From Butyrivibrio sp. (lineage in GTDB: Bacteria; Bacillota; Clostridia; Lachnospirales; Lachnospiraceae): a stretch of DNA of 36,732 bases. Positions 24,081 through 30,223 of this stretch are shown piece after piece. The stretch is from positions 1 to 36,732 of the forward strand of contig NZ_JAFRGN010000049.1 of the NCBI RefSeq assembly GCF_017433805.1, in the 5' to 3' direction. The notes under the pieces are model-generated. The model saw only the letters and a program-made list of their open reading frames with translations. It made no database searches and was not told where the DNA came from. Within the stretch, counting starts at the first letter, position 1; each line of letters starts with the position of its first letter. The translations under genes were made by a program, and so were the position numbers.

Positions 24081-24245
24081 TACGTGAAATTCATCCTTTT
24101 TATACTGTATCTAACGTATTTTTCAGGATTTTTTCAGTAGAATTACGTGAACATCACAGTTATTCATATCCATCTCACGTATTCATACCCACTTTTTATA
24201 CAAAAACTACGTGAAAAATATAAATTATTGAACGTTACCCACGTA
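24081..24245. repeat. Dyad array 1: six alternating TACGTGA / TCACGTA motifs, about 32 bp apart
   Basis: Motif starts and orientations: 24081 (+), 24112 (-, TAACGTA), 24144 (+), 24175 (-), 24208 (+), 24239 (-, CCACGTA). Steps are 31, 32, 31, 33 and 31, so the full dyad repeats every 63-64 bp. Spacers of 24-26 bases differ from one another. The segments from a minus motif to the next plus motif can fold into hairpins with T-rich/A-rich inner arms. It lies 32 bases after the stop of the CPBP gene. The rest of this 294-base gap (from 23984) holds nothing else I can identify except a perfect palindrome CCGATATCGG at 24251-24260. Confidence 0.85.
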
Positions 24246-24277
24246 GAGAGCCGATATCGGTACCTTACAAACTCCGA

Positions 24278-26494: not shown

Positions 26495-26651
26495 TATTGT
26501 CCTCTTCTTACTGTGAATATCTCTTTAGCTAATTCATTGTTTGCTCTACTGCAAAAGCCACTCGTACGTGACATCATCACTACTATCTCTAATTTCTCAC
26601 GTAATTTTCAGCCTTTTCACAGTAAAAATACGTGAGTTTTACAATCTTCCC

Positions 26652-28046
26652 AGTAATGTCCATATAATGGTGTAAATTCAAAAATTAATATTAAAAGAGC
26701 CACAGGCTTACCTTTAGGTATAATTAAATCACCACAATAAAATCAACCGGAGGTATAGCTCAATGGCTCAACTCAATATTACTTTAAACCAAGAGGAAAT
26801 TCTACAGTTACTTTCATCAAATCGTGATGATGCATTTAAAAAGCTTCTACAGGATAGCCTGAACACCATCCTACAGGCTGAATCAACAGAACAGCTTAAG
26901 GCAGAGAAATATGAGCGCTCGGAAGAACGGACTGACAGCCGTAATGGCACCAGAGAACGCCAACTGACTACTCGTCTTGGTAAGATTGACTTAGTAGTAC
27001 CAAGGCATAGAGATGTTCCGTTCAAGTCACTTATATTTGACAACTATAAAAGAAGTGAGGCTGCTCTTGTAGCGAGTATGGCTGAGATGGTAATCGCTGG
27101 TGTCTCAACAAGAAAAGTGGCCAAGGTTGTTGAAACTTTGTGTGGAACTTCCTACTCAAAATCCATGGTGTCAGAAGTATGCAAGGATCTTGACGTTATT
27201 GTTAATGAATTTCGTAACAGACCTCTGACTAATGCGTATCCGTTTGTTCTTATAGATGCTACTTATTTCAAGGTTCGAAATGACCACAGGATCGTATCAA
27301 AGGCCTTTATGGTAGCTTATGCCACAAATACAGAAGGAAAGCGTGAAGTCATCGGATTTGACCTGTTTGATAACGAAACAAACAATACGTGGTTCATGTT
27401 TATGGAATCCCTTAGGAAACGCGGTTTACACGGAGTAAGAGTCATTACTTCCGATGCTCATCCGGGTATTCTGTATGCTATAAAGAAGGTCTTTCCTGAA
27501 GTGCCCTGGCAAAGGTGCCAGACACATTTTTCAAGGAACATACTAGATAAAACGCCTTCCAAATATCAAAAAGGATTACATTCTGAGCTGCTTGAAATGT
27601 ACCATGCTTCAACCATCACTGAAGCACGAAAGATCCGTGATCGCATAATTAGCGACTACAATGATATTGCTCCAACAGCGATGGAATGTCTTGATGCTGG
27701 CTTTGAAAGTGCAATGACCATCATGGTATTACCTGAGCGTCTTAGGATATATCACCGAACATCGAATCATATAGAGCGTCTGAACCGTGAACTAAAACGT
27801 CGCTCAACAGTGATTGGGGTATTTCCAAATGATGCTTCTGTGATAAGAATCATGGGAAGTGTGCTTATGGATGTTCATAAAACCTTTGCCTTGGCAAACT
27901 TGAGTGGATATCCTAAAAAGCAGTTGCAATCAGTGGATGACTATATTCCTCAGCTTAAGGAAATAGCTGAAGAACAATTGAAACTATTGGCGGCTTAACG
28001 CCGCTTAGTGCCTAAAGGTAATTTACACACAATTAAGGACTTGACC
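26652..28046 (+). mobile_element. IS256-family insertion sequence, 1395 bp, in dyad array 2
   Basis: Ends are imperfect 27-bp inverted repeats (26652-26678 and 28020-28046; 18 of 27 positions match, best at GTCC and GTGTAAATT). An 8-bp target duplication ATCTTCCC flanks it (26644-26651 and 28047-28054). It holds one transposase gene. The sequence TTACCTTTAGG recurs just inside both ends and may be a transposase-binding site. The clean duplication and open reading frame suggest a fairly recent insertion. Confidence 0.85.
26763..27998 (+). CDS. IS256-family transposase
   Basis: 411 residues. DDE catalytic residues: first Asp in L-I-D-A-T-Y-F-K, second in V-I-T-S-D-A-H, and Glu in S-N-H-I-E-R-L-N-R-E-L. 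Between them is the family's W-Q-R-C-Q-T-H-F-x-R-N block (C-x2-H). The N-terminal part carries the DNA-binding region. It is full length with no frameshift. GGAGG lies 9 bases before the ATG. Confidence 0.96.
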   Translation: MAQLNITLNQEEILQLLSSNRDDAFKKLLQDSLNTILQAESTEQLKAEKYERSEERTDSRNGTRERQLTTRLGKIDLVVPRHRDVPFKSLIFDNYKRSEAALVASMAEMVIAGVSTRKVAKVVETLCGTSYSKSMVSEVCKDLDVIVNEFRNRPLTNAYPFVLIDATYFKVRNDHRIVSKAFMVAYATNTEGKREVIGFDLFDNETNNTWFMFMESLRKRGLHGVRVITSDAHPGILYAIKKVFPEVPWQRCQTHFSRNILDKTPSKYQKGLHSELLEMYHASTITEARKIRDRIISDYNDIAPTAMECLDAGFESAMTIMVLPERLRIYHRTSNHIERLNRELKRRSTVIGVFPNDASVIRIMGSVLMDVHKTFALANLSGYPKKQLQSVDDYIPQLKEIAEEQLKLLAA

Positions 28047-28145
28047 ATCTTCCCAATGCTCCTCACGTATTCAAGCCTGTTTTTATGCAAAAACTACGTG
28101 AAATAATAATAGTTATCGATGATACTCACGTAGAAAACCATTTTC

Positions 28146-28403: not shown

Positions 28404-29339
28404 TCAAAGTTTTCTTCCCTTTATATACGCATCAGCCATTTTAAGTAGCTCTTTCTTACTGTCATGTTCTATGGTATTAAGTGCCTCCTCAAGCGTAAGG
28501 CTCTTTAGAGCTTTTACTTCGTTTGGTCGTATTATGCCTGGAGCTACGTCTGTGTATTCTGCCAGGAAGTACACAACCTGCTTGGTGACTCCTGGCATTT
28601 CTGCTGGCTGATATTGCTCAATCTCTCTAAAGTCAGTGCAGAGATTAACTTCCAGATTTGTTTCTTCTTTTATCTCGCGAAGTGCAGTCTCTTCTTCTGT
28701 CTCGTTTCCTTCCATATGGCCCTTGGGAAAACTGTGAAATCCGCTTGTTTCCTGAACAAGAAGGTACTTAATCACTCCGTTCTCAACTGTGTAAACTATC
28801 GCCCCACAGGATTTTTCAAAAGTATCGCTCTGTGAGTCTTCATCCACACTCATTCGGTTAATGCTATAGTAGGTGAGGTCTCGCTCCTGACCAAGATAGA
28901 CCATTTCCTTCTCGACAAAGTGGTCGTAGGTCATTCCGCATTTTTCCATCACCCGCTTGGAAGACTCATTTCCTGTAAAAAAGGATGCATAGACGGTTTT
29001 GAATTTCTTTTCCTCAAGACAAAATTCTATGAACCGCTCAACTGCCTCTGTTCCATAACCACGTCCCCAGTACCCTGAGCCGATTCCGTAGCCAATCTCA
29101 CATGATTCCCCGTTGTCATCAAAATATAAAATGATGCCAATAAGACGGCCTGTTTCCTTGAGCCTTATGGCATACATGCCGTCCCTGTCCACATAAGGAG
29201 TGACATCCATGTCCTCAATATTCTCAACATAAGTGCAAACAAAGGTTTCAAGCACCTTTCTGTCGTGGGATATATTGTGAAAGTAATCCTCTTTATCAGA
29301 CGCCTTAATGGCATCAATCACTAATCTCTCTGTCTCCAT
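28404..29339 (-). CDS. GNAT-Nudix fusion protein
   Basis: 311 residues in two domains. Residues 1-163: RimJ-like acetyltransferase (M-E-T-E-R-L start; acetyl-CoA motif G-S-G-Y-W-G-R-G-Y-G-T-E-A-V at 87-100; N-E-S-S-K-R-V-M-E-K-C-G). Residues 175-311: Nudix domain like bacterial Ap4A hydrolases (K-Y-L-L-V-Q, F-H-S-F-P-K-G-H-M-E-G-N). Its Nudix box runs from G207 (E213, R221-E222, E225-E226) but ends T-N228-L where G is the rule. The metal-binding glutamates are intact, so activity is likely. The joined activities suggest a nucleotide-linked acetylation or detoxification job (inference). Confidence 0.88.
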   Translation of the reverse strand: METERLVIDAIKASDKEDYFHNISHDRKVLETFVCTYVENIEDMDVTPYVDRDGMYAIRLKETGRLIGIILYFDDNGESCEIGYGIGSGYWGRGYGTEAVERFIEFCLEEKKFKTVYASFFTGNESSKRVMEKCGMTYDHFVEKEMVYLGQERDLTYYSINRMSVDEDSQSDTFEKSCGAIVYTVENGVIKYLLVQETSGFHSFPKGHMEGNETEEETALREIKEETNLEVNLCTDFREIEQYQPAEMPGVTKQVVYFLAEYTDVAPGIIRPNEVKALKSLTLEEALNTIEHDSKKELLKMADAYIKGRKL

Positions 29340-29393
29340 GTGTTATCTACCTGCTCGTCCTTGGCAGGTGCCTTTCCTATTATTCCTGCAAAA

Positions 29394-29682
29394 CGTATAA
29401 AACAAGCACTTTTGTCCATTTTATATGCTTAAAATCTGGTCAAAAAGAGCTGTTTTGCTATAATTCCCTTCTTATTTGAATATTTATATGTATTTTCCCT
29501 ATATCAAAAAGTCCTAAAGGCATATAAATACTTCCTAATCGCCCTTTTTATATGTATTTACCACTTTGGGAATCGAGCAAAATACGTATAAATCATGCCT
29601 CATCGACCATTTTTATAGTAAATGATGGTATTTGCCACCCCGAAACACATATAAAATGGCATATTATTGCCCCGATTATAGC
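29394..29682. repeat. Dyad array 3: ten CRTATAAA / TTTATATG motifs with a 63-64 bp period
   Basis: Plus motifs start at 29394, 29457 (degenerate), 29521, 29585, 29648: steps 63, 64, 64, 63. Minus motifs start at 29420, 29483, 29547, 29612 (degenerate), 29675 (weak): 26-27 bases after each plus motif. Each plus/minus pair can form an 8-bp stem with an 18-base loop. Loops (18) and inter-pair spacers (29-30) differ between units. The period equals that of arrays 1 and 2 but the motif is unrelated. It fills most of the 368-base gap between the macrodomain gene (stop at 29708) and the GNAT-Nudix start; nothing else was seen there apart from a short hairpin near 29350-29371. Confidence 0.8.
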
Positions 29683-29707
29683 AACTAATAGCGGTCCATT
29701 CTGGCCT

Positions 29708-30223
29708 TCAGTTCAGCGACTGATAAATCTGATAATCACCTTCGCTGAAATTCACGAAAGTTACTTCCATATCGTAGTCTGCATTCTGTGCAAGCCACTC
29801 TTTTACCGTAGAAAGAGCTATCTGCGCCGCTTCTCTCTTGGGATATCCGTACACTCCTGTGGAAATACCTGGAAATGCGATACTGTGAAGATTATTAGCC
29901 TTAGCAACCTCGAGAGAATTCCAGTAGCAATTACGAAGGTCTTCAGGGTCAGAAGCGCTTCCGCTGTAGATTGGCCCAACTGTGTGAATAACATGCGCAG
30001 CAGGAAGATTGTAGCCTCCAGTAATCTTGGCTTCGCCTGTTCTGCAGCCGTTTAAAGTTCTGCATTCATCCAGGAGCCCTGGACCAGCTGCTCTGTGTAT
30101 GGCGCCGTCAACGCCACCGCCGCCCAGTAATGAACTGTTCGCAGCATTAACTATCGCATCAACCTGTAACTTGGTGATATCACCAACATGAAATTTGATT
30201 GAGTTCTTCATCTGAAAATCCAT
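29708..30223 (-). CDS. Macrodomain protein, O-acetyl-ADP-ribose deacetylase / ADP-ribosyl hydrolase type
   Basis: 171 residues, one macrodomain. G-D-I-T (14-17), N-A-A-N-S-S-L (26-32), [10 protein letters not shown] (34-43) and [10 protein letters not shown] (about 119-128) match the MacroD/YmdB class, which removes ADP-ribose from proteins and hydrolyses O-acetyl-ADP-ribose. AAGGAGG is only 3 bases before this ATG. A later ATG (codon 5) is less well spaced. The start lies 44 bases inside the upstream gene, in another frame. Confidence 0.93.

Follow-up and report, generated by a model that had tools for sequence, protein, structure and literature searches.

Phased sites ahead of the gene for the protein that binds them are familiar from the iteron and operator arrays of plasmid initiators and partition proteins, and in type III toxin-antitoxin systems repeats lie upstream of the gene for a ToxN-type ribonuclease, which has another fold than PD-(D/E)XK. 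REP/REPIN-RAYT systems (REPtrons; REP, repetitive extragenic palindromic) place a nuclease-type gene beside its own palindromic repeats; a genome can hold several motif types, each served by a separate protein, and extra intergenic copies (PMC3116915, PMC8266576). ToxIN/CptIN systems, of type III, combine a nuclease with matched tandem repeats (PMC8860590), and non-Cas hypervariable interspersed repeats are variable-spacer arrays beside nucleic-acid enzymes, one of these systems having an AddB-like PD(D/E)XK protein (Altae-Tran 2023, PMC10910872). We analyzed a 36,732-base stretch of Butyrivibrio-group DNA (the window) that holds an intergenic array of inverted dyads at 29394..29682, and compared it with these systems. 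Arrays of this kind lie mainly upstream of genes of one nuclease-like protein family, called family F here. From sequence comparisons, the window array probably offers sites on double-stranded DNA to which a cognate family F protein would bind, with homing-like spread as a possible part of that reading.

Structure and helical phasing of the arrays

The window array consists of five inverted dyads of the type CRTATAAA..TTTATATG with a period of 63–64 bp, their left half-sites starting at the first position of each dyad (Table 1) in steps of 63, 64, 64, and 63. Exact CRTATAAA occurs four times and exact TTTATAYG three times in the window, all seven inside 29394–29655. Right arm TTTATATG is found at 29420, 29483, and 29547. 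An earlier description made from the letters alone (the sequence-only reading) had every CRTATAAA followed 26–27 bases later by a right arm; the half-site at 29457 is GCTATAAT, and right arms 4 and 5 are degenerate (TTTATAGT, ATTATAGC). The shared part of the dyads is the half-sites and their spacing; interiors and linkers both vary. With a score of 53 in a motif-blind detector (shuffled maximum, 43), the array is confirmed as real, and it has the motif of its own and the period that had been proposed. Throughout the 3.45-Mb genome, the CRTATAAA dyad pattern matches six places on each strand and an everted dyad pattern matches seven (reversed controls, 0 in both cases). The six places form four arrays, on contigs 9, 34, 47 (the window), and 56, in which half-site direction alternates and start-to-start gaps are mostly 26–27 and 36–38 bp. 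Promoter and terminator readings of 29200–29800 were rejected: there are 2 promoter-like sites against 2.3 expected, and neither of the two terminator-like sites (0.2 expected) is a dyad, one lying ahead of the array and the other within it at 29624–29639.

These and related arrays, including those beside family F genes, have a pitch that corresponds to whole turns of the helix. Motif hits on the same strand tend to lie 43, 51–54, 62–64, or 74–75 bp apart. Periods of 34–96 were scanned on 104 flanks at a threshold of 47, which had no shuffles of its own, and 70 flanks reached it, with best periods of 42 (1), 49 (1), 52–54 (36), 62–64 (23), 73–75 (6), and 84–85 (3). Periods are thus near 42, 53, 63.5, 74, or 84.5 bp in 69 of the 70, a ladder of 4-5-6-7-8 turns; the 84–85 class might instead reflect a doubled 42-bp unit. 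For 17 proteins, one per 45%-identity cluster, phase coherence reaches 0.94 at a turn of 10.6 bp (null 99.9% level, 0.72); for 34 proteins clustered at 60% identity it is 0.89, best at 10.8 (null 99.9% level, 0.55). A special status of 63–64 bp is not supported; this period is the six-turn class of the series. Proteins lined up along one side of double-stranded DNA would be expected to give such a ladder; RNA would not. Because the periods fall on whole helical turns, double-stranded DNA would be what is read.

A pattern of three half-sites was scanned over 84,980 species genomes and found 27 stretches in Butyrivibrio, Pseudobutyrivibrio, other Lachnospiraceae, Fibrobacter, Treponema, Blautia, and a few metagenome-assembled genomes (MAGs) without a genus name. 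Many of the array records are MAGs and possibly misbinned; those of B. hungatei, P. ruminis, and OR37 carry no MAG label. Since the pattern itself fixed the searched gaps, gap uniformity counts as evidence only outside them, and there the half-site chains keep the 26/37 rhythm (for example, chains of 10 half-sites in one Fibrobacter record, in the Treponema record, and in the Blautia record). In 80 in-register dyads the inner step is 25 (4), 26 (38), or 27 (38), and variation in the left arm is independent of that in the right (A-C 8, G-C 5, A-T 43, G-T 12; Fisher p 0.29). We place no weight on a count of single dyads in relatives (15/61), because it includes hairpin terminators and some genomes also match its reversed control. 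A phage origin of CATATAAA arrays was rejected, as the triple pattern had 0 matches in viral contigs.

Family F and its arrays

Family F comprises uncharacterised stand-alone proteins of ~250–290 amino acids, with a variable, fast-evolving N-terminal part and a C-terminal nuclease-like domain. No match above cut-off was found in Pfam for seven members or in NCBIfam for three, and a PDB sequence search with the family profile returned nothing relevant. The C-domain matches PD-(D/E)XK-type models and folds. Its predicted structure (model residues 145–262) has an alpha-beta3-alpha-beta core with E, D, and E/H active-site residues, and the predicted local distance difference test (pLDDT) score is 75–91 from residue 151 on. 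These active-site-like residues are invariant in 101 family F proteins. The domain is therefore described as PD-(D/E)XK-like, putatively of the EDxHD type, a subtype taken from one fold match.

Two arrays in the window's own genome adjoin family F genes, a CATATAAA array beside the gene at contig 56:31787–32629 and a GCACGWTA array beside the gene at contig 56:18607–19353, and a Blautia relative adjoins its own CGTATAAA array. In the own genome, the family is represented by six intact genes, a broken one, and a 26-residue remnant. Within the genus set, 37 of 41 genomes have family F, with at most nine matches per genome, and one genome picked by its array has about a dozen members. Of the six intact copies, four are preceded by an array that passes the threshold, and no two of these share a motif: contig 56:31.8k (score 49), contig 29 (47; GCATC by eye), contig 17 (52; GGCAG by eye), and contig 67 (61; TTTACCGCA by eye). 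The broken gene (L153; contig 57, 177949–178601) has an upstream TTAGCCGCA..TGCGGCTAA array of about six units by eye. The array upstream of the contig 56 gene C56:31787–32629 has the window motif, and the window array is very likely a trans copy cognate to that gene.

We scored the flanks of 77 family loci, of which 30 came from the genus search, 40 were hand-picked from a ranked list (not strictly in rank order, some at contig ends or with stops skipped), and seven were those first seen. Shuffled controls, run for periods 50–80 only and scoring 43 at most, were the basis for the array threshold of 46. Among the 76 long-enough loci, this score was reached by 59 upstream flanks, 2 downstream flanks, and 0 shuffled flanks. 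Upstream arrays number 58/75 after removal of one duplicate locus and 56/72 after three link-discovery loci (two hits, one miss) were also dropped. Control flanks reached the threshold at 1 of 28 carA genes, which is the known array, and at 1 of 16 Macro genes. A Macro-gene upstream flank in G010 (L080, contig 62) scores 50 and is possibly another array. The pairing of motif type with a neighbouring gene, raised as a check in the sequence-only reading, is thus found with one nuclease-like family (58/75 upstream against 2/76 downstream), and half-site motifs differ from gene to gene among its loci.

Matching between arrays and proteins was evaluated in 56 pairs, two of the 58 being set aside because their motifs were vague. 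Period correlates with protein identity at rho 0.64 and motif, more weakly, at rho 0.19, and 0 of 1000 permutations reach either value; the motif correlation is stronger with the N-terminal part (0.23) than with the C-terminal part (0.13). These correlations support the claim that period, and more weakly motif, track the protein. They agree with the suggestion of a single mechanism that reads arrays at a fixed pitch, the motif changing along with a matched protein, and the proposal of matched proteins for arrays is supported. Closely similar motifs occur in 35% of protein pairs above 70% identity, 8% at 50–70%, and 1–3% below 50%; the words thus change rapidly. A tree was built from 29 members chosen by hand, some of their motif labels being read by eye. 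TACGTGA proteins and GCATC proteins each form a clade in it (both 100/100), and further clades unite the CATATAAA-like proteins of Fibrobacter (100/100) and three of those from Butyrivibrio (90/86). A genus member with TATATAA and the CGTATAAA protein of Blautia are placed outside the CATATAAA-like clades, which suggests that the CATATAAA-type word arose on more than one occasion.

The link also holds across genomes. The 27 stretches were reduced to 17 array-picked genomes, one stretch per genome, with repeats and three genus-set genomes left out (G013, G016, and G035, which also have family F). Family F is present in 15 of the 17 (E 1e-6), including Fibrobacter, Treponema, and Blautia, the Blautia genome being where the link first appeared. 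Class-wide, 10 of 148 genomes have it (E 1e-20), among them the own genome and another member of its genus (Fisher p 5e-13, relatedness ignored). Within a genome, dispersed arrays occupy other sites than gene-side arrays, and additional arrays of a gene's motif are found far from that gene; in Treponema and Pseudobutyrivibrio the dispersed and gene-side arrays share local quirks by eye.

Turnover of arrays and further repeats

Arrays come and go, being absent at matching junctions of close relatives. The surroundings of the window's Macro gene differ in the relatives looked at, so the empty-site comparison was made at other loci. An array of B. hungatei NK4A153 is gone at the same junction in three relatives, where 506 bp are reduced to 53 (G033), 346 to 37 (G035), and 514 to 91 (G036). 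Beside this CATATAAA array lies another long palindrome, GGCAGATATATATAA...TTATATATATCTGCC (L068, ~2669–2776), with partial matches elsewhere in the NK4A153 genome and in G035. None of the 27 further carA flanks that were scored has the array found beside carA in the own genome. Upstream of carA, three relatives (L113, L115, L119) hold other short repeat arrays of the CCTTCCCCC..GGGGAAGGC type, and this junction therefore seems to collect unrelated intergenic repeats.

In one MAG (RUG596; L056, L057, L058, L060, L061), five contigs share a dispersed element with CATATAAA half-sites whose copies are pairwise 84–97% identical over up to 458 bp. Whole-array copying as a general account was suggested by whole-array alignment and weakened once spacers were compared alone; copying is supported only for this MAG, because the spacers of other same-motif arrays are not clearly alike. 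In ortholog comparisons, where half-site columns were defined by motif match and are thus biased towards conservation, the CTGTTG set differs by 13.5% in half-sites versus 42.7% elsewhere, and a dispersed trpE-side array common to three genomes by 3.6% versus 9.9%. The sequence-only reading suggested that the array, with its unit-specific loops and spacers, could carry variable information. This is not supported for the spacers: their sequence looks free, with only length fixed, and one of the four ortholog sets shows spacer divergence at about three times the rate of half-sites.

The two other arrays of that reading, with an unrelated motif at 63–64 bp, are real as well: they are TACGTGA/TCACGTA arrays (Table 1). 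A Mutator/IS256-type transposase gene at 26763–27998 lies between the arrays at 26565–26635 and 28063–28132, and may have split one array. The motif-blind detector was run on ~395 kb of the own genome and the window, with one block-shuffled copy per scanned contig as control. Scores above 43 were given by the known CATATAAA arrays, the TACGTGA array at 24081, a GCATCGG array (contig 34, 53.2 kb; 47), a GCATCGA array (contig 9, 44.6 kb; 48), the GCACGWTA array (contig 56, 19.5 kb; 44, barely over the shuffled 43), and a place without an assigned motif (contig 9, 6430; 44). A lag-63 count across the whole of the sampled sequence was dominated by the periodicity of codons. TACGTGA lies upstream of family genes in other species of the genus. 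As these relatives have a cognate and no intact one was found in the own genome, the TACGTGA arrays look orphaned here and may have outlived their gene. The 26-residue remnant (L155; contig 48, 47126) is of the family C-terminus and lies ~7 kb from the contig-48 TACGTGA array. In viral contigs the TACGTGA pattern was found in one stretch (L146, 13260–13504, IMG/VR) of near-identical 64-bp units; a tRNA-like stretch, recognized by eye, and an integrase gene come just before it, and it is therefore probably host DNA. Tandem CGTATAAG/ATTATATG-like repeats with 65–66 bp steps were seen in G014 (L049, 3138–3500).

Table 1. Arrays, dyads, and adjacent genes in the window
Feature	Coordinates	Strand	Structure	Remarks
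CATATAAA-type array	29394..29682	none	five dyads, period 63–64 bp	
Dyad 1	29394..29427	none	CGTATAAA-N18-TTTATATG	
Dyad 2	29457..29490	none	GCTATAAT-N18-TTTATATG	
Dyad 3	29521..29554	none	CATATAAA-N18-TTTATATG	
Dyad 4	29585..29619	none	CGTATAAA-N19-TTTATAGT	degenerate right arm
Dyad 5	29648..29682	none	CATATAAA-N19-ATTATAGC	degenerate right arm
GNAT + NUDIX gene	28404..29339	-		context only; start 54 bp from CATATAAA array
Macro-domain gene	29708..30223	-		context only; 3' end 25 bp from CATATAAA array
TACGTGA/TCACGTA array	24081..24246	none	period 63–64 bp	no intact same-motif family gene found in genome
TACGTGA/TCACGTA array	26565..26635	none	short	
TACGTGA/TCACGTA array	28063..28132	none	short	by eye like part of 24175–24246

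Alternative explanations and known systems

In the explanation we favor, the N-terminal part of a family F protein would read the half-site, and the protein would bind each half-site and assemble along one helix face. Binding on its own upstream array would keep expression low and park the nuclease. Like a homing enzyme, the nuclease might sometimes cut, and the ensuing repair would carry array DNA to further intergenic positions and so produce the dispersed arrays. We give moderate odds to a nuclease that is parked on its arrays and limits itself there, with homing-like array spread; that the arrays were spread by the family F nuclease is a possibility we rate somewhat below even, and the function may be self-control, homing-like spread, or defence.

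Several results weigh against this explanation. Upstream arrays above threshold are lacking in 17/75 family genes. In the own genome, the contig 36 copy scores 41, with a weak CAGTA array visible by eye only, the contig 56:18.6k copy has its array downstream (score 44 versus a shuffled maximum of 43), and no intact copy was matched to TACGTGA. Array-picked genomes outside the genus have arrays at 46 or above in 13/29 upstream and 2/29 downstream flanks, excluding a repeated Blautia locus (14/30 upstream with it), and family F was not found in two array-picked genomes, a Fibrobacter MAG and a MAG with an AT-rich, chance-like match. The Fibrobacter gene-side CATATAAA arrays score only 43–45, and the gene-array link there therefore rests on motif and inspection by eye. 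Spacers of dispersed same-motif arrays are mostly unlike, one MAG excepted, and half-sites are no better conserved than the rest in the TACGTGA and TCCCTGTCT ortholog sets, which are less diverged than CTGTTG. The structure model of the N-terminal part is not reliable (pLDDT mostly below 50), and Foldseek alone gave no match at E 0.001 or better.

Plain autoregulation, in which family F proteins are DNA-binding regulators, the arrays cooperative operators, the dispersed arrays regulon sites, and the nuclease domain unrelated to spread, would fit the upstream position of the arrays, many of which end 30–150 bp ahead of the start codon. Dispersed arrays precede carA-like, trpE-, fabF-, and alaS-like genes (names by eye), and the conserved trpE-side array also fits. 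However, active-site-like residues are invariant throughout the 101 proteins, and no gene family is common to array neighbours beyond one cluster of 6 loci, several of them orthologous places. With the carA-side array missing from the other carA flanks scored and so little shared among array neighbours, a regulon would need rebuilding per species, and we regard this alternative as unlikely. Array-tethered defence or addiction, with a nuclease that is silent on host arrays and released on loss of host DNA or of the locus, appears less likely again. It would account for a stand-alone nuclease-like gene with many paralogs per genome and one broken copy, and the C-domain is shared with the PADLOC candidate PDC-S68 and with nine viral-contig proteins that match essentially in that domain; against it, no partner gene common to family F neighbourhoods was seen. 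Far less credible than either is a transcribed array of ~34-nucleotide hairpins, as in type III toxin-antitoxin or CRISPR-like arrays. The dyads are inverted repeats, the gene comes after the array as in ToxIN, and products of ~60 nucleotides had been proposed earlier. A pitch quantised by the B-DNA turn is needless for RNA, the arms vary independently, and the window has no Rfam match at gathering score; CRISPR-like and RNA-hairpin readings were rejected on the helical pitch and the independent arms.

If each nuclease does read a private DNA word, dozens of natural protein-word pairs would lead to a readable DNA-recognition code. Hundreds of bp of seemingly junk intergenic DNA per locus are tied to one unnamed protein family. 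The loci offer a natural experiment, with many paralogs, each with its likely recognition word alongside and a pitch quantised by the double helix. Were binding confirmed, N-terminal-to-word rules might be learnable from sequence pairs alone, and why one bacterium keeps several such nucleases would become directly testable. The surprise for specialists would be a 4-5-6-7-8-turn ladder that agrees with the protein tree.

Among known systems, CRISPR-type near-identical repeats with unique spacers were not seen, since only half-sites are shared, and no gene common to array or family F neighbourhoods was seen, although no search aimed at cas was made. The whole-turn pitch sought of a DNA-phased binding-site array was found; unlike iteron and operator arrays, these go with a nuclease-like domain and have no common neighbour gene. 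Type III toxin-antitoxin systems use RNA antitoxin repeats and a ribonuclease, whereas family F arrays have a DNA-turn pitch and free spacers. With free spacers, independent arms, and helical pitch, the whole repeat is not conserved as a folded RNA, and no ToxN-type ribonuclease was matched in Pfam (seven proteins) or NCBIfam (three), the fold being PD-(D/E)XK-like. From the Altae-Tran 2023 systems, family F is set apart by the main-text descriptions of two of the six. The EDxHD homing endonuclease I-Bth0305I differs in that no intron or intein was seen to contain family F, whose target-like sites are kept in multi-copy arrays by the gene and elsewhere.

The resemblance to REP/RAYT systems is that a repeat type is matched to a neighbouring protein with further copies elsewhere, which is also found for family F. 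Those systems use an HUH/Y1 enzyme on single-stranded hairpins with GTAG, whereas the family F enzyme is PD-(D/E)XK-like: no Pfam Y1 match was found at E 1 in seven family F proteins, and GTAG is absent as a common element of the gene-side half-site motifs. The arrays also differ from REP/RAYT repeats in their inverted half-sites ~18–46 bp apart, free spacers, double-helix phasing, and mainly upstream position. No description of this array-protein pairing was found in searches of an open-licence library. CATATAAA arrays and family F occur in Bacillota, Fibrobacterota, and Spirochaetota. There is about an even chance that they represent a new class, in which free-standing nucleases from at least three phyla would each use a fast-changing N-domain to recognize a private DNA word, keep a helix-phased array of it at their own gene, and seed further arrays.
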